This document shows, in pieces, positions 17,006 through 44,879 of a stretch of 64,000 nucleotides of DNA. This stretch comes from Alphaproteobacteria bacterium (GTDB lineage: Bacteria > Pseudomonadota > Alphaproteobacteria > UBA8366 > GCA-2717185). How positions within the stretch are numbered: the first letter of the stretch is position 1; each line of letters opens with the position of its first letter. The translations under genes and the position numbers were made by a program. Location of the stretch: the NCBI GenBank assembly GCA_040905865.1, contig JBBDQU010000022.1:62001-126000 (forward strand), given 5' to 3'. Below the pieces are notes generated by a model. That model saw only the letters and a list, made by a program, of their open reading frames with translations, searched no databases and was not told where the DNA came from.

Positions 17006-18154
17006 CTACACCGTTTCCATGGATTTCCTGTCGACGCTGTAGAAGGACGTCAGCCCGTCAAACAGTTCCCGGAACTGTGCATGGCGTAATTCCGCGCCAT
17101 ATTGCTCCACATACCATTTCCAGAGATTGACGCTATGCGTCGCCACGGAAACATGCGCCGCGAGGCTCAGATAGGAATTCTCCGAGCTTTCCAGAAACGA
17201 GATGAACTTCTGCGGCTTGTCCTCATCGACGAACAGATTGTAGCTGCGCTCATATTCGCCCAGAACCTGATGCGCGGCTACATAGCCTTCCCGCATTTTC
17301 TGTCGCAGAATTTCCCGCTTTGCCCGAATTTGCGCAAGTTCTTCCTTTGAAAGGCTGATATGGTCCACCGGAAAACAAAGCTGGTTGTGCCCCGCCCATT
17401 TGAATAGGGTTTTCAGTTTTTCCTGAACCTCATGGAACCGCACCTGATAATAACAGACCGCCTTCCAGGCAAAAAACACTTCCGGCGCCTTCTCGGGCGC
17501 GATCTGCATTGCCTTGATGAAAGGTTCGATTCCGTCGACATCCTTCGCCTGCCAGATCTTCATCAGGAAGCGTTCGACATACTGCTCGCGGGCCGGAACA
17601 TCGGCACCACCCGCCAGGGACGACAAAGCCTTGGTGACCAGCCTGGAAATCTTTTCCCGTATCGGCAGGCGGATCTTGTCCCATTCCGCCTTTGAAATTG
17701 CGAAATAGGCGCTGTGAATTGTCTCCTCCAGCCCCATCTGTTCCGCCTTGCTGCGCAGCATGAACGGATCCAGGCTGTGCATCGAATCGAATAATTTCAA
17801 TATTCTCAGGTCGGCGCCGATCCGGTCGAGCACTTCCTTGCTTGCATTACCCTGGCTGATCTTGAACGCCAGTGCAGTGTAAAAGCCGCTGTCGCTGAAA
17901 TTGAGCGACTCACCGCCCTCATAGATATTGTCGTAATCATAGGGGAAATAGACCAGCGTATTGATAATCATCGGCTGCCGCGCTGTTGGCAGCGATTTCT
18001 CGAACTGCTTCAACAGGACGGATTTGTTCAGGATATCCGTTTCAAACAGTTTGCCGACCGCATCGCCGGCCGGAATTTCCTTGCCGATGGAATAGCAGTC
18101 CAGTGCGATTGCCCGGCCCGAGTCGATTATGTTTCGTAGTTGCGAGCGGTTCAT
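17006..18154 (-). CDS. Protein of unknown function, second of an unknown pair
   Basis: 382 residues from an ATG at 18154; longer readings add a Cys/Phe-rich stretch that looks non-coding. I do not recognise the family. It looks soluble and mostly helical, with no signal peptide or membrane segment. A notable segment is NTLVYFPYDYDNIYEGGES (about residues 62-80). It lies 158 bases downstream of, and on the same strand as, another unrecognised gene, and is convergent with the PEP-CTERM gene. Codon use looks like the neighbours, with slightly lower G+C. Whether the pair works with the PEP-CTERM genes is unknown. Confidence 0.75.
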   Translation of the reverse strand: MNRSQLRNIIDSGRAIALDCYSIGKEIPAGDAVGKLFETDILNKSVLLKQFEKSLPTARQPMIINTLVYFPYDYDNIYEGGESLNFSDSGFYTALAFKISQGNASKEVLDRIGADLRILKLFDSMHSLDPFMLRSKAEQMGLEETIHSAYFAISKAEWDKIRLPIREKISRLVTKALSSLAGGADVPAREQYVERFLMKIWQAKDVDGIEPFIKAMQIAPEKAPEVFFAWKAVCYYQVRFHEVQEKLKTLFKWAGHNQLCFPVDHISLSKEELAQIRAKREILRQKMREGYVAAHQVLGEYERSYNLFVDEDKPQKFISFLESSENSYLSLAAHVSVATHSVNLWKWYVEQYGAELRHAQFRELFDGLTSFYSVDRKSMETV

Positions 18155-18312
18155 AATTGCCGGGTGAAGGATACCGGTGCTGAGAAACCTCAACCTAATA
18201 TAGCAGCAAAAAAACGTCAGTACAGAAAACTTAAATTCCGGCTTCCTTAGAACTCCAAGCTGCACCCCACCATGGCAAAACTGACGATACAATAACAGGG
18301 CGTGAATCTGCT

Positions 18313-19353
18313 TTAGCGATGCTCCGCAAGACGGGCGGACCGTTCGATACTCTTGATCCGATCGATCCCCGGCTTGATATAGGCCGTAATATAATCCACC
18401 AAAACCTGATTCGACGTTTCCGACTCCCCGAACTTCTCCTCATATCCCTGAATCTTGACATACAGGCCGCACAACATGCCGCCGATCGTGCCATGATTGC
18501 TTTCTATCATGATCTTGACCTTGCGAAACGTCTCCTCACTCAGGTTCTGCCACATTGATTCCGTATGCTTGTCGAAGGATTGTATGCGCCCGGCGATATG
18601 CGCCATGATTTCGTTCAGGTCCAAACTGACATTCGTCAGCATATCCTTCAGGTGCCGGTCGCTACGGCATATCTCGTCCCGTTTCAGTTCTTCTATTCGC
18701 CTCAACAGAGCGTCGAGACGCGGCACAAGCCGGTCAAACTGATCCTTGAAATATGCCAGCGACAGGAACACGTCCCCGTAATCCGTGAGAAACGCCGGCA
18801 GCTTGGCCAGAATGATTTTAAGCCTCCCTGCCAGACGATTGAGGTTCTCGCGCGCCGTCCTGTTGTCGCCCCTGTTGAAGCTTGCGATCAGGTCGCTGAT
18901 GCTCGCCAGCCCGATCTGTTCATCCTGTGAATAAATCAGGTCCATCAGCGGGCGGGTAAAGACCCTCATATATCGGTCAAGTTCCTGACGCCGCCTGTCC
19001 GACAGGCGCAGATCGTCAATATTCTCGACCTCGATGCCTAAACCGCGCAACTGCATCCGCAGAGTGTAGACATCGAAACTCTGCATCAGGCTCAACTTCG
19101 CAATCAGCACACCGTCCGGATGCTTTTCGCCGACGGGCCAGTCAAACATGCGGGCAAGGCGGGACGGATCGACCTGCCCGCTGCCTGTATCGCTGTCGTG
19201 AAACAGTTCAACCATGCTGTCGCCGCGCGCATTCTTGATCATCCGCGCGTGTCGCAGCCCCGGGGTTTTCAGGGGCAGGAAATGCATTGGCAGGATATGG
19301 AGAGAATCTATCTCCGAGTTCAGATCCCGGTCACCTGGTATTACAGATGTCAT
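18313..19353 (-). CDS. Protein of unknown function, first of an unknown pair
   Basis: 346 residues. No family is recognised, and no signal peptide or membrane segment is visible. The sequence is helical and charged, with likely coiled-coil segments in the middle (RLDALLRRIEELKRDE and the following region, roughly residues 205-265). The N-terminal third contains PDGVLIAKLSLMQSFDVYTLRMQL (about 78-101). The 257 bases upstream are AT-rich and probably hold the promoter. It is the first gene of a two-gene minus-strand unit with the gene ending at 17006. Confidence 0.72.
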   Translation of the reverse strand: MTSVIPGDRDLNSEIDSLHILPMHFLPLKTPGLRHARMIKNARGDSMVELFHDSDTGSGQVDPSRLARMFDWPVGEKHPDGVLIAKLSLMQSFDVYTLRMQLRGLGIEVENIDDLRLSDRRRQELDRYMRVFTRPLMDLIYSQDEQIGLASISDLIASFNRGDNRTARENLNRLAGRLKIILAKLPAFLTDYGDVFLSLAYFKDQFDRLVPRLDALLRRIEELKRDEICRSDRHLKDMLTNVSLDLNEIMAHIAGRIQSFDKHTESMWQNLSEETFRKVKIMIESNHGTIGGMLCGLYVKIQGYEEKFGESETSNQVLVDYITAYIKPGIDRIKSIERSARLAEHR

Positions 19354-38960: not shown

Positions 38961-40106
38961 GTGCATGAAGCCGTCGCCCTGTCGCGTGACCTGATCCGCT
39001 GTCCCAGCGTGACGCCGGCGGAAGGCGGGGCGCTGGACCTGTTGCAGTCGACCCTGGAAGGCATGGGTTTTGTCTGTCACCGGCTGCCGTTTTCGGCGGA
39101 GGGGACGCCGGATGTCGATAACCTCTATGCCCGCTATGGGACGGCCCGGCCGAATTTCTGTTTCGCCGGCCATACAGATGTCGTTCCGACGGGGCCGACG
39201 GACGCCTGGAGCGTCGACCCGTTCGCCGCGGAAATCCGCGACGGCATTCTGTATGGCCGCGGCGCCACCGACATGAAAAGCGCCATTGCGGCCTTCGTGG
39301 TCGCGGTGCGGCGATTGCTGCGGAAAAATACGCCCGAAGGATCGATCAGCCTGCTGATCACGGGCGACGAGGAAGGGCCCTCGGTCAACGGCACCAAGAA
39401 GATGCTGCAATGGCTGGCGGAGAACGGGCAGGAAATCGACATTTGTATTGTCGGTGAACCGACCAATCCGACTCGGCTCGGCGAGATGATGAAGATCGGC
39501 CGGCGCGGCAGCATGAACGGCTGGCTGACCATTCACGGCGAACAGGGACATACCGCGTATCCGCATCTGGCGGACAACGCGGCGCACCGGATCGTCGACA
39601 TGCTGAAGGCCATCACGTCGGAACCGCTGGATCAGGGCTCCGATCATTTCCAGCCATCGACCCTGCAGGTTTCGACCATAGATGTCGGCAATCCGACGAC
39701 GAACGTCATTCCCGGCGAAGCGCGGGCGACCTTCAACATCCGCTTCAACGACCTGCACAGCTCCGCCACGCTGACCGAATGGCTGCACAGGACCTTCGAT
39801 GCCGCCATCGGCAAGGGCGGAAAATACGACCTTCGGATCGAGGTCAGCGGCGAATCCTTCCTGACGCCGCCCGGCCGGCTCAGCGATATCATATCCGACG
39901 CCTGCGAAAAGGTGCTCGGCGAACGGCCGGAACTCAGCACCACGGGCGGCACGTCCGATGCCCGGTTCATCAAGGATTACTGCCCGGTCGCGGAATTCGG
40001 CCTGGTGGGACAGACCATGCACAAGGCCGACGAACAGGTCGCCGTGCGGGATATCGAAAACCTGACCGATATTTACGAAGCCGTGCTGCACGGCTATTTC
40101 AGATGA
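38961..40106 (+). CDS. dapE: Succinyl-diaminopimelate desuccinylase
   Basis: 381 residues from a GTG at 38961, 4 bases after the dapD stop. M20 zinc peptidase family: [11 protein letters not shown] (metal His/Asp), [29 protein letters not shown], and the dimerisation domain with [15 protein letters not shown]. It removes succinate from N-succinyl-LL-DAP. The stop overlaps the next gene (ATGA). Confidence 0.95.
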
Positions 40107-40672
40107 TTTCCCGCCACGAGGTGCTGATTTCGCTTTACGGCGCCTGGCGTCTGTTCATCCGCGACCCGCGCGGCATTGACTGGCTGGACGATTCGATCGA
40201 CGGCTACTGGAAATCGTTTTTCTGCGCCGTCGTCATCCTTCCGGGATACATCATCTGGGTCGCGCTCGGCTCGGGCGAGCTGTACCAGGATGTCGGGTTT
40301 CTCCGCATCGCTTCGGTCGAAATGATCGCCTACGTGATCAGCTGGGTGGCATGGCCGCTCGTCATGGCCTATATCGCGCCGGCAATCGGCAAGGACGACC
40401 GCTACATCCGTTATATCGTCGCCTTCAACTGGTCGGCGGCAATCCAGATTGTCCTGTACCTTCTGGTCCTGTTTCTCGGCGTGGTTATCAGGGTTCCGCC
40501 GGGTTTCGCCGCGTTCTTCGCCTTCTTCGTCCTGATCGTCATACTGGTCTATCACTGGTTCATCCTGCGGATCGCCCTGGAAGCCTCGCCGGGCGGGGCG
40601 GTCGGTCTGGTCATCGGCGAGCTGGTGCTGGGTCAGTTCATCCGCGGAATGAGCCACGGCATGCTGCACTGA
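40103..40672 (+). CDS. Small polytopic membrane protein, unknown function
   Basis: 189 residues whose ATG overlaps the dapE stop (ATGA). Four or five membrane segments are visible ([75 protein letters not shown]). This resembles the YIP1-like helical membrane proteins found after dapE in related genomes. No catalytic motif is seen. Translational coupling to dapE suggests long-standing linkage. Confidence 0.8.
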
Positions 40673-40690
40673 GAGCGATACTAACAGGCG

Positions 40691-40733
40691 ATAACATGTT
40701 CGCAGGTTCCATTCAAACCTGCGAACATGTTAT
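40691..40733. repeat. Perfect 18-bp inverted repeat with 7-base loop
   Basis: ATAACATGTTCGCAGGTT (40691-40708), loop CCATTCA, then the exact reverse complement at 40716-40733. No T-run follows on either strand, so it is not a standard intrinsic terminator. It stands exactly at the junction between the dapE operon and the lower-G+C kinase/methyltransferase pair. Confidence 0.9.
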
Positions 40734-40797
40734 ATCTTCAAAAAGCTAGATCAGATCATGTCAGCTAAACCGTTAATCAGGGAAATTTAAGCGTCCT

Positions 40798-41754
40798 ATG
40801 GAAGACCTTAACTTCGCTGACATTCGCCGCACCCTTGAACATACTGGTGTCCTCAGCCCGGATATGCAGCTTTCGATAAGTCCAATCGACCGTGAAATGT
40901 CGCGTTTATGGCAGATCACCATTCCAGATCCTACCGGGGCGACCGGACGTTACTTCGTCAAGAGGGTTGGTTCCTCAGTCACCCGGCAGACCATAAGTAC
41001 GGAACGGCAGGCCCTCATTCTGAAGTCGTTTGAAGATTCCTTCGCGGGCGTCAGGTACTTCGATTCCCTTTACGTTGGCTATTGCAAGGACACCGCTATG
41101 GTTGTCCTCAAAAAATCTCCGCTGCCTTCGCTTATCGACAACATTGCCGGGCTGAAGCCCCGGCAAGCACTAAAAGGCTACCCTGACCTGCGCAACGGAG
41201 TAAAACTGGCGGGGCGATGGCTTCGACACTGGCATGATGCTACCCGGCATACCGGTAGTATTACCGAACAACTGGATAGCTACGTCCAAGCACGGCCTGC
41301 CGCCTTTGGCGCGTTACCCTACTCAACCAGAGAGAAAATCAAATACATGGTGCAGTCGTGCTCCAATCATGAAATCGCAACAACACATAGCGACTTCACC
41401 CTTTTCAATATACTGTCCGATGGAAGCAGGATTTCCGTTATCGATCCTGGAATTTGGGAGTGGACGGAAATGTCGCCTTGTTGGGACGTCTGCACGTTTT
41501 TAATATCCCTTGAGGAGCAAACCCGCTTTCGCTGGAGGAACCCTGTCTTATCCGTTCCTAGGATTCTGGATAAACTAAAGGCCGAGTTCACACATGCATA
41601 TGGCGATGAACATCTTACGAACTCCAATATATACTTAACCTGTGCGGCGGTTCGACACTCTACTTTATTCTTTAGCTGCCCACCCGGCGATGTAAAACGT
41701 AAGATGTGGCACAGGCAAAAACTGGAAAAACATATAAGCCATTTTTGTGATTAA
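40798..41754 (+). CDS. APH-like (aminoglycoside/choline kinase fold) phosphotransferase
   Basis: 318 residues. The kinase-like fold is indicated by TTHSDFTLFNILSDG (catalytic Brenner motif, about residues 198-212) followed by ISVIDPGIWEW (metal-binding Asp). The N-terminal lobe includes GRYFVKRVG with the likely ATP-binding lysine. The substrate is not evident; sugars, lipids and small amines are all used by this superfamily. The G+C content and codon use are visibly lower than in dapE and truA, and a methyltransferase gene follows 50 bases later, so the two probably entered together and may modify the same glycan (inference). Confidence 0.7.
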   Translation: MEDLNFADIRRTLEHTGVLSPDMQLSISPIDREMSRLWQITIPDPTGATGRYFVKRVGSSVTRQTISTERQALILKSFEDSFAGVRYFDSLYVGYCKDTAMVVLKKSPLPSLIDNIAGLKPRQALKGYPDLRNGVKLAGRWLRHWHDATRHTGSITEQLDSYVQARPAAFGALPYSTREKIKYMVQSCSNHEIATTHSDFTLFNILSDGSRISVIDPGIWEWTEMSPCWDVCTFLISLEEQTRFRWRNPVLSVPRILDKLKAEFTHAYGDEHLTNSNIYLTCAAVRHSTLFFSCPPGDVKRKMWHRQKLEKHISHFCD

Positions 41755-41804
41755 TAACAGGACGCTATCTGGCCGTATGTCCCATGGATGAATGAAGAGT
41801 AGTC

Positions 41805-42842
41805 ATGAGATTTCTGGAAAAATTTGCTTGTCCCAAATGCGGCGCAAACCTCGAGGCCGAGAGCAACGACCTGTGTTGTCGCGAGTGCCGTTCCACATAC
41901 GCCATCAAAGACGGCGTTTGCAGCTTCATGGTGGATGAGAGCAGCCACGGTGAATTCGACCGTGAGACAATGCAAAAGATCCTTTCATTTGCCAGGGAAA
42001 ACGGGTGGCGCCGCGCGGTTGACGAAATCATCAAGCCGATACGGCCCAGAGTCGTCCAGCTAATCACGGGTCAGGAGCGGGATCTGTCCATAGCGCCGAT
42101 CACGGACGGCGGCGAATGTGTTCTCGATTTTGGTTCCGGCTATGGCGGCGTTTCGCGCGCGCTGGCCAAGAAATTCGATAAGGTCATTGCCCTGGATGGC
42201 TCGATGGAACGCGTCTCGTTTCTCTCCATCATGATCGAGCAGGATAAGATCGAGAACATCCAGCCTGTCTGTCACAGCCAGCTGCTGCACCTGCCGTTCT
42301 CGAAGAATGCGTTTGACGCCGTTGTCATGGTCGGCGTGTTCGAGTATCTGCCATTAAGCCTACCTGACATGACAATAGCGGCTGCGCACAAGGCATTTCT
42401 TCAGTCGCTTCTGAATATCCTGAAGCCCGGTGGCCGGCTGTTGATCCATTCGAAAAACCGGTTTGGCTGGAACTACCTTTTGGGTGGGCGAGATCATAAC
42501 GGCATACGGTTCGGTCCTGCGCTTCCCGTTGCTGTCTCGGATATGGCGATGCGTCTCTCCGGGCGCGGTCGCTATCGCATCGTTAACTACAGCAACAGGC
42601 AATACAGAAAAATCCTGCGCAACGCCGGGTTCGAGGTTGCAAAAATGTTCTGGCCGGTTCCCGGCTATCAGAATCCCAATTATCTCGTAGATCTGGATGG
42701 AAACGTGCCCCAACAGTTAGCCGGCTTTGAGCCCGGGTACAACTCACGCTCCAAACAGGCGGCTTTTGGGCTGTTGGCAAGAACTGGTCTGTTGCCTCAC
42801 TTCGTGCCAAATTTGGGCATTTTAGCAGTCAAGCCCCGTTAA
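41805..42842 (+). CDS. SAM-dependent methyltransferase with N-terminal zinc ribbon
   Basis: 345 residues. An N-terminal Trm112-like zinc ribbon has Cys pairs CPKCG and CCREC (about residues 9-29). The class I methyltransferase core shows CVLDFGSGYGGVSRALA (motif I, about 107-123), VIALDGS and FDAVVMVGVFEYL, then LKPGGRLLIHSKNR. Architectures of this type are common in polysaccharide and LPS gene sets. It forms a low-G+C pair with the upstream kinase. The substrate is unknown. Confidence 0.8.
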   Translation: MRFLEKFACPKCGANLEAESNDLCCRECRSTYAIKDGVCSFMVDESSHGEFDRETMQKILSFARENGWRRAVDEIIKPIRPRVVQLITGQERDLSIAPITDGGECVLDFGSGYGGVSRALAKKFDKVIALDGSMERVSFLSIMIEQDKIENIQPVCHSQLLHLPFSKNAFDAVVMVGVFEYLPLSLPDMTIAAAHKAFLQSLLNILKPGGRLLIHSKNRFGWNYLLGGRDHNGIRFGPALPVAVSDMAMRLSGRGRYRIVNYSNRQYRKILRNAGFEVAKMFWPVPGYQNPNYLVDLDGNVPQQLAGFEPGYNSRSKQAAFGLLARTGLLPHFVPNLGILAVKPR

Positions 42843-43025
42843 CACGTGAATCTGCTGTCATGAACCTCTGGGCTGTGTACAAACAGTCAAAGGATTACGG
42901 TAAGGTGCGTTTCTTTATCCAACATGAATGGACCTGCTCCATTTCACCAGAGGCAATTGTTCTTTGTCAGCCATTATCGCCTCAAACCTGATGTGCTGCG
43001 GCCGCGCTTTCGGAAGACGGACACC

Positions 43026-43196
43026 ATGGCCGGTCTGCTGAAACGGATTCTGTTGACGTTGATTGCGCTGGTGGTGCTGGTCATCGTGCATGAATCCTTT
43101 GGCACGATATCGGCGGTTGTCGTGGTCGGCGTCGGCTTTCTGCTCTATATCTTCTGGATTACCCTGCGGCAGATGCGGGACGACGATTCTGATTAA
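43026..43196 (+). CDS. Small single- or double-pass membrane protein
   Basis: 56 residues: GLLKRILLTLIALVVLVIVHE, then ISAVVVVGVGFLLYIFWITL and a charged tail RQMRDDDSD. Two hydrophobic stretches are visible, and it looks like a small inner-membrane protein. No family is recognised. A longer upstream reading adds 34 residues without coding character. It is convergent with truA. Confidence 0.6.
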   Translation: MAGLLKRILLTLIALVVLVIVHESFGTISAVVVVGVGFLLYIFWITLRQMRDDDSD

Positions 43197-43218
43197 GGCA
43201 AATCGTGATCAACTGGAT

Positions 43219-43956
43219 TCAGTAGATCACCCTGGTCAGGAAAAGACCCGTCGGCGGCGCGGTCGGCCCGCCGGCGGTCCGGTCGCGGGCCTCCAGCGCC
43301 GTTCGCACGCGCTCGGGCGGCCACGACCCCTCGCCGACCATTTTCAGCGTCCCGGCCAGAATCCGCACCTGATTGTGCAGGAAGGACCGCGCTTCCGCAG
43401 TGACATGAACCTCCTCGCCGGCCCGCGTGACGCGGACGGCGGTCAGCGTTTTCACGGCGGTTTCCGACTGGCAGTGAATCGAGCGGAAGCTGGTGAAGTC
43501 GTGCTTGCCGACCAGCACCTGCGCCGCCGCGTGCATCGCCTCGGCATCGAGCGGCCGCACCACATGCCAGACCCGGCCTTTCTCCAGCGATGGCGGGCCG
43601 CGACGGTTCAGGATCCGGTACAGGTAGTGCCGCCCGGTGGCAGAAAACCGGGCGTGAAAATCGTCCGGCACGGCTTCCGCTTCCAGCACCGACACGGCGA
43701 GGCCCTTCAGGTGATAATTCATGGCGTCGCGTACCGTGCCGGCGTCGGTGTCGCCATCCAGGTCGAAATGGGCGACCTGGGCCAGCGCATGAACGCCTGA
43801 ATCCGTGCGTCCGGCGCCATGCACCGTGACGGCGGCGCCGGTGAATCCCTTTATGGCGTCCTCCAGCGCGGCCTGTACCGAATAGCCATTGTCCTGCCGC
43901 TGCCAGCCGACAAACGGATCGCCATCATATTCAACGGTGATTTTCCAGCGGGTCAT
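43219..43956 (-). CDS. truA: tRNA pseudouridine(38-40) synthase
   Basis: 245 residues. TruA motifs: [18 protein letters not shown], the catalytic Asp in [15 protein letters not shown] (about residue 52), [14 protein letters not shown] and [15 protein letters not shown]. It makes pseudouridine at positions 38-40 of the tRNA anticodon stem. Its ATG overlaps the fmt stop by 4 bases, and the order def-fmt-truA is conserved. Confidence 0.96.
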
Positions 43957-44879
43957 GGCAGGACGGCTCCCTTTGGCAGGTCGTATCCGCGCAGGAACGA
44001 ATCGGTGTCCACAGGGCCACGGCCGCCGCGCTGCACGGTCAGCAGTCGCAGGGCGCCCTCGCCACAGGCGACTGTCAACCGGTCGTCCAGGATCGTGCCG
44101 GGCGCACCGCTTCCCGCCGCCGGAACCGCCGCCAGCACCTTGATCCGCTGGCCATTATGTTCGAACCAGGCGCCCGGCCAGGGCGTATAGGCCCGCACGG
44201 CCCGCGCCAGTTCCGCCGCCGTCCGGGTCCAGTCGATTCGGCCTTCGTCGCGCGACAGCTTTTTCGCGTAGCAGACGCCGTCTCCCGGTTGCGGCGTTGC
44301 CTGGGCGGTTCCGGCGGCAACGCTGTCCAGCGCCGCGACGATCATGCGCGCGCCGAGCGCCGCCAGCACGGCATGCAGATTTTCGGCCGTGGTTTCTTCG
44401 GTAATGGGCAATGCCTTGCGGCTGATGATATCGCCGGTATCCAGCCCTTCATCCATCCGCATGATGGTGACGCCGGTTTCGCGGTCGCCGGCCAGGATCG
44501 CCCGGTGGATCGGCGCCGCGCCGCGCCAGCGCGGCAGCAGCGACGCATGGATATTGAAACAGCCCAGCCGGGGCGCATCCAGCACCGCTTTCGGCAGGAT
44601 CAGCCCGTAGGCGGCAACCACGGCGGCATCCAGATTCAGCGCGGAGAATTCATCCTGCGCTGTGGTATCGCGCAGCGATACGGGTGTCCGGACCGGAATA
44701 CCCTGTGATTCCGCATGGGCATGCACGGGGGACAAACGTTCCTTCTGGCCGCGGCCGGCGGGACGGGGCGGCTGGCTGTAGACGCAGGCGATGTCATGGC
44801 CGGCTTCCTTTAGCGCCGCAAGCGCCGGCACCGCAAAGTCCGGCGTGCCCATATAGGCCAGGCGCAGGCGGGCCGCCAT
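43953..44879 (-). CDS. fmt: Methionyl-tRNA formyltransferase
   Basis: 308 residues. Formyl-transferase motifs: [14 protein letters not shown] at the start, [24 protein letters not shown] (catalytic Asn/His and SLLPxxRG), and [17 protein letters not shown]. The C-terminal OB-like domain follows about residue 210. It formylates initiator Met-tRNA. It starts 5 bases after the def stop. Confidence 0.96.

Follow-up and report, generated by a model that had tools for sequence, protein, structure and literature searches.

Methylphosphate capping in Escherichia coli O9a and Klebsiella pneumoniae O7 is carried out by one large protein that holds two catalytic domains and a coiled coil, in O7 together with glycosyltransferases (PMC3482155, PMC11231755). 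In WbdD of E. coli O9a, which recruits WbdA, the kinase is of eukaryotic type and a coiled coil is also present; residues R203, H132 and H133 of this protein have been assigned to the phosphate (PMC3482155). ORF6 of K. pneumoniae O7, encoded in an ABC-transporter cluster, combines in one polypeptide a methyltransferase (MT) and a kinase domain similar to the amicoumacin kinase AmiN with a coiled coil, a CBM-like domain and two GT2 modules (PMC11231755). With ATP and S-adenosylmethionine (SAM), ORF6-O7 yielded phosphorylated and methyl-phosphorylated acceptor in vitro, and its D441A variant gave no product; orthologues are described in alpha- and gammaproteobacteria and in cyanobacteria, some of them ending past the coiled coil, which all of them have (PMC11231755). 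Here we describe a case in which the catalytic parts appear alone: a rare pair of kinase and MT genes, situated among housekeeping genes in a 64-kb stretch (hereafter the window) of a 4.37-Mb alphaproteobacterial draft genome; an archaeon has a counterpart within a glycan cluster.

The pair occupies an acquired low-G+C segment of about 2,338 bp (40681..43018, no strand assigned; edges set by eye and accurate within a few nt). A putative APH-type kinase of 318 aa (40798..41754, + strand) is followed on the same strand, after 50 nt, by a zinc-ribbon class I SAM MT of 345 aa (41805..42842, + strand). Like ORF6-O7, the pair unites an MT with a kinase, here putatively APH-like and in O7 AmiN-like; unlike ORF6-O7, it consists of two separate short proteins, has a zinc ribbon and no GT domain, and lies outside any recognised glycan cluster. 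We propose that it forms a stand-alone methylphosphate cassette, a tentative reading that we place slightly below an even chance. The kinase would move phosphate from ATP onto a hydroxyl of a glycan under construction in the cytoplasm and the MT would then use SAM to methylate the phosphate, so that a surface or exported glycan would end up with a methyl-phosphate cap or side decoration; the acceptor glycan would be encoded elsewhere in the genome. In this scheme we infer the order of the reactions, the phosphate as methyl acceptor, the identity of the sugar and the location of its genes. Methyl-phosphate tagging of a surface sugar is suggested by the absence of the segment from close relatives and by several distant relatives of the pair that lie in surface-polysaccharide clusters. 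Among titles and abstract openings of open-licence PMC papers, we found none on a stand-alone pair of zinc-ribbon MT and APH kinase.

Acquisition of the segment is supported by its absence from all three congeners compared (G001, G002 and G003). G001, the closest of them, aligns at 88.2% through window position 40672 and at 87.3% from 43026 onwards, with 20 nt in between, and in G003 and G002 the same two flanking genes are adjacent at a distance of 23-25 nt (judged by eye). Since the bases shared with G001 end at CGATA (40676-40680) and resume at GGACAC (43019-43024), the extra DNA can be placed at approximately 40681-43018. On its left lies a gene for a 189-aa protein beside dapE (40103..40672, + strand) and on its right a gene for a small 56-aa protein beside truA (43026..43196, + strand), the start of which is conserved in G001 and G003; these two adjoin each other in the three congeners, and neither protein has a Pfam match. 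The flanks consist of core genes according to NCBIfam (dapD and dapE to the left; truA, fmt and def to the right). In the congeners G003 and G002 the dapE match contains one TGA, possibly due to draft assembly errors or alignment ends.

Composition was compared at the level of the segment and of its genes. The G+C fraction amounts to 0.514 for 40673-43025 (0.499 for the kinase and 0.544 for the MT), against 0.613 for the whole window. At third codon positions (GC3) the kinase reaches 0.547 and the MT 0.655, the 40 other open reading frames (ORFs) of the window having a mean of 0.739 (sd 0.045, minimum 0.649). The kinase is a clear outlier, whereas the MT is low in both GC3 and G+C yet inside the range of the other ORFs. 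In codon-usage fit the two genes are the lowest of the 42 window ORFs (0.505 and 0.561; median 0.706), a ranking that is approximate because the ORF set was chosen greedily by length and includes some in a wrong frame. Elsewhere in the window, two adjoining ORFs at 17009-19353 (G+C 0.530 and 0.546, no Pfam match) are possibly another acquired stretch.

Given the absence from the three congeners, the most atypical codon usage of the window and the presence of the kinase in only two of 59 genomes (its own included), horizontal gain of the segment is supported, as the original prediction had considered likely; its route of arrival is something we infer. That prediction had also placed an island between the dapE operon and truA-fmt-def, which agrees with the core flanks and with both genes being ORFs. 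Of the edges it gave (40681-42860), the left one is retained and the right one is moved, for the extra DNA runs some 160 nt further; the lower G+C it had noted applies plainly to the kinase and less so to the MT. A transposon or integrative element was considered and rejected: two genes fill the segment and no repeat pair links both edges, the small ORFs in overlapping frames not having been searched for families.

The segment carries, at its left edge, a perfect inverted repeat of 18 bp around a 7-nt loop (40691..40733, no strand assigned). The surrounding 125 nt (40673-40797) fold with a z-score of -4.73, more stable than all 200 shuffles, and the hairpin is the sole full copy in the genome when up to two mismatches are allowed. 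An intrinsic terminator was rejected as there is no T tract. The hairpin may be a transcription stop that was carried in with the segment, or a trace of its arrival. Rfam gives no match within 40000-44000.

Relatives found with the MT as query occur in very different surroundings. In G157 the kinase and MT genes are convergent (MT 49% identical to that of the window) and belong to an exopolysaccharide cluster of an alphaproteobacterium, which also holds a group-1 glycosyltransferase, DUF5935/Wzy_C, two Polysacc_synt_3 flippases, two sulfotransferases, another MT, a polysaccharide deacetylase, an RTX-repeat gene and one gene without Pfam match. In G417 an MT (26% identical) precedes the kinase, the frame of which was read from stop to stop (the longest ATG/GTG start yields 207 aa). 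This locus is a nonulosonic-acid type cluster, with genes for UDP-GlcNAc 2-epimerase, NeuB, cytidylyltransferase, DegT aminotransferase and formyltransferase as neighbours; four of the ten genes scanned have no Pfam match. The archaeal counterpart is found on a plasmid of Halorussus limi (L120), near two glycosyltransferases, a flippase and a sulfatase-fold gene. Like the window pair, it consists of a zinc-ribbon MT and a kinase, here of the APH family, and the MT stop overlaps the kinase start; it differs in being archaeal, in having the MT first and in an MT that is 20% identical to that of the window. The H. limi MT gene (L120 7971-9008) is not listed in the (incomplete) feature table of PLSDB, though it overlaps an annotated aminoglycoside phosphotransferase family gene.

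Two other relatives stand apart from such clusters. G005 has a kinase followed by an MT (31% and 45% identical to those of the window), between two core genes, one for an ATPase that we label ABC-F-type and the other of ftsH type. The N-terminal part of this kinase (L033 11290-11415, - strand) seems by eye to be readable in another frame from an upstream ATG, which suggests a frame break or a sequencing error. In G454 a single protein of 620 aa (L123 8577-11669) contains a zinc-ribbon MT followed by an APH-type catalytic loop; its gene adjoins a TPR gene and a second, separate APH gene, and no polysaccharide cluster is recognised. The stretch around it includes genes that we take to resemble flagellar ones. 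Finally, the plasmid protein P0003 of Pseudomonas asturiensis (1457 aa) comprises an MT, a kinase-like stretch and two GT2 modules, and its gene lies directly downstream of ABC-2 permease and Wzt_C ATPase genes.

In composition only G005 resembles the window, with G+C values of 0.418 (kinase) and 0.443 (MT) against 0.583 for the rest of the locus. G157 is slightly below its surroundings (0.501 and 0.489 against 0.538), and the others are close to theirs (G417 0.469 and 0.437 against 0.480; H. limi 0.491 and 0.505 against 0.518; G454 fusion 0.614 against 0.622). Normal composition in relatives, which the original prediction had named as speaking against it, is therefore seen in part, namely in G417, H. 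limi and G454; older residence in these genomes would fit, and the empty sites beside the window stand. Of the other observation named in this way, homologues acting on non-glycan substrates, nothing was found.

The two genes are coupled in relatives. A kinase-motif ORF is adjacent to, overlapping or fused with the MT in five of the five relatives G005 (also retrieved by the kinase query), G157, G417, H. limi and G454, and it is present at none of 92 generic MT loci that served as controls. The latter comprise 18 loci from the 59-genome search (0/18), with only some 1.5 kb of flanking sequence, and 74 from a contig scan (0/74), some of them short; that scan covered at least 75 loci, one of which (L042) was a family member and the other 74 of which were taken as generic. 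It should be noted that the motif was written after the kinases of the family had been seen, and that the window pair, being given beforehand, is not an independent case. Order and strand vary (kinase-MT in G005, convergent in G157, MT-kinase in G417, MT-kinase overlapping in H. limi, fused in G454), from which repeated joining is suggested instead of one inherited block.

As an alternative, the chemistry may be uncoupled: the kinase might phosphorylate one sugar position and the MT O-methylate a different hydroxyl of the same glycan. The glycan contexts of G157, G417 and H. limi would fit such uncoupled reactions as well, and the WbdD homologue of E. coli O8 is described as directly methylating sugar hydroxyls (PMC3482155). 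Nonetheless, adjacency or fusion in all five relatives, together with an arginine of the MT (Arg258; 42576..42578, + strand) that is identical in all seven aligned MTs, the P. asturiensis protein included, fits a shared acceptor better, and the nearest characterised enzyme methylates phosphate (PMC11231755). We therefore regard uncoupled chemistry as a serious but rather unlikely alternative. Arg258 is a candidate phosphate-binding residue and, by analogy, may be the counterpart of the WbdD phosphate residues such as Arg203.

Judged from its sequence, the MT is a class I SAM methyltransferase with a Trm112-like ribbon. It matches Methyltransf_23 (50.3 bits) and Methyltransf_11 (49.5 bits) in Pfam above cut-off, and the ribbon is visible as CxxC...CxxC at residues 9-28 (41829..41888, + strand). 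The zinc-ribbon MT named in the original prediction thus holds for the fold and the ribbon cysteines, but the Trm112p match of the N-terminus is, at 20.4 bits, just below the cut-off of 22. Among the seven aligned MTs the ribbon can be seen by eye in five, with shifted cysteines in G005. In PADLOC the window MT matches mad2 with 66.9 bits (E 3.7e-19), higher than its score against Pfam Methyltransf_11, and the G454 fusion does so with E 4.8e-14; the kinase of G157 weakly matches PD-T4-6 (6e-4). One might therefore think of an anti-phage defence pair acting within the cell and not on its surface. The mad2 match is, however, confined to the SAM core (MT residues 101-220, on a model of 492 positions), the window kinase has no PADLOC match and the glycan contexts do not fit, which makes defence the least probable of the explanations weighed here. 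Phosphoethanolamine-type N-methyltransferases rank first and third among the PDB matches of the MT profile, and these matches too fall within the generic SAM core. Along with weak Choline_kinase matches (H. limi E 0.04, G417 E 0.035), these bring to mind a phosphocholine route, in which the kinase would act on ethanolamine or choline and the MT would N-methylate phosphoethanolamine for decoration of a glycan. The Choline_kinase scores remain under cut-off and LicC- or LicD-type genes would not fit into the segment, so that we consider this route very improbable.

The kinase has the catalytic loop H197-x-D199...N204...D216, and its catalytic and metal-binding motif HSDFTLFNILSDGSRISVIDPG was located by motif scan at 41386..41451 (+ strand). 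H197, D199 and N204 are invariant across five aligned kinases, and K55 is common to the kinases of the window and G005. An APH fold, as given in the original prediction, is suggested by relatives: the kinases of G005, G157, H. limi and G417 pass the Pfam cut-off for APH (PF01636; 23.2 bits). The window kinase itself has no Pfam match at E 0.1 and hence none to APH, and at the same threshold the kinase half of the G454 fusion is likewise without an APH match. PDB matches of the kinase profile (the best 60 of 214) are protein kinases aligned at the catalytic loop only, with E 0.002 or worse. That four relatives belong to the APH family, and that the G454 fusion weakly matches a macrolide 2'-phosphotransferase in the PDB (E 0.036), could point to a small-molecule or self-resistance pair of antibiotic-type phosphotransferase and MT. 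Against this, the named flanking genes are housekeeping genes, three relatives lie in glycan clusters and no resistance family appears among the NCBIfam matches listed for the kinases; we deem such a function hardly likely.

Comparison with the known enzymes was largely made through P0003, which is a probable orthologue of ORF6-O7 as judged from sequence: the six residues that the ORF6 paper assigns to the SAM site, Y28, Y66, G91, G93, E112 and Y158, recur in P0003 at identical positions. When aligned with hhalign, a profile of six MTs matches the P0003 MT at 99.2% (E 1.2e-19, score 136.9, columns 91-305), against 98.1% (E 1.1e-13, score 96.5), 98.4% (E 9.9e-15, score 106.9, ending at column 225) and 85.9% (E 5.2e-6, score 46.1) for three generic MTs, a moderate lead given that two of the three controls also exceed 98%. 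The P0003 alignment spans the KNRFGW-like and PDYxxP-like segments after the SAM core. It is suggested that the window MT is closer to an O7-terminator-like protein than to generic MTs. On the side of the kinase the ORF6-O7-type likeness is confined to the catalytic loop. WbdD of E. coli O9a, with which the original prediction had compared the pair, resembles it in the sequential action of kinase and MT on a glycan end, the chemistry proposed here; its kinase is nevertheless fused and eukaryotic-type, whereas that of the window is separate and has four relatives in the APH family. As closest relative WbdD was therefore rejected (compared by description and not by alignment, and absent among the best 60 of the 230 and 214 PDB matches of the MT and kinase profiles, respectively), and ORF6-O7 fits better.

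Several observations weigh against the methylphosphate cassette. Apart from the moderate lead in the hhalign comparison, P0003 stands as a proxy for ORF6, and its kinase-loop Asp is found at 443 where the ORF6 paper gives 441. The kinase profile aligns with the P0003 kinase region at the catalytic loop only (2-3%), as it does with the G454 fusion (9%). P0003, itself found by its MT, fails the kinase motif test because the His of its loop is replaced, which lowers the coupling to five of six when it is counted in. The zinc ribbon is lacking from both the G417 MT and P0003 in the alignment of seven MTs. AlphaFold models of the two proteins were too poor to use (pLDDT 36.5 and 43.5). No Wzt_C domain was detected in the window's genome by a search that was positive in two of 14 control genomes. 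Moreover, the window pair is not beside polysaccharide genes, and neither is the G005 pair among the neighbours inspected. The glycan role put forward in the original prediction is backed by the context of G157, G417 and H. limi, but by none at the window, G005 and G454.

In chain termination, the function of the pair to which the original prediction had compared the two genes, they would, as in WbdD, halt polymerisation and license export by an ABC transporter. The class of chemistry and the Wzm/Wzt-type genes beside the P. asturiensis relative are in line with it. Proteins of 318 and 345 aa, however, leave little room for a long coiled coil (judged from length, no coiled-coil program being used), no Wzt_C was detected, and flippase genes adjoin the pair in G157 and H. 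limi. Chain termination is accordingly not supported, and we consider it very improbable. For the methylphosphate cassette, a side or end decoration is likelier than chain termination because the proteins are short, Wzt_C is lacking and flippase genes lie beside two relatives.

The family is rare wherever it was sought (samples overlap, and the window's own genome is counted where listed). In the set of 59 genomes the kinase is limited to the window and G005; some MT match at E 0.001 is obtained in 30 of them, of which only those two rise above the generic SAM-core level (E 1e-99 or better; next 4.5e-6). MT profiles recovered three of 385 genomes in a class sample at E 1e-25 (window, G157, G417), two of 43 in an order sample (window, G005) and two of 398 in a phylum sample at E 1e-20 (window, G454). 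Around the other carriers the counts were 1/4, 1/48 and 1/27, always the carrier itself. Of 72,556 plasmid records, only those of H. limi and of P. asturiensis (P0003) gave a match to the window MT at 1e-5, and none matches the kinase. Left outside the family count were two Deinococcus records matching the G454 fusion over 20% of its length, and 13 records matching the G417 MT, none over 80% of its length. Viral contigs yielded no MT or kinase relative in scans with two short peptide patterns each. A gut bacteriophage record (MT836085.1, 7030-7662) resembles the MT weakly (25% across 64% of that of G157, E 3e-12).

If the proposed chemistry holds, searches for these genes could serve to predict which uncultured bacteria and haloarchaea carry methylphosphate on their glycans, and the spread of methylphosphate caps would become a testable question. 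It would also be a reason for not taking such kinases for antibiotic-resistance enzymes, an interpretation that the family name of the H. limi kinase might invite. More speculatively, and with a rather low probability in our estimate, the cassette would pass between bacteria and archaea without being tied to polysaccharide loci and would act in trans on any host glycan, so that the cell surface would be switched in a single two-gene step, for example against phage adsorption.

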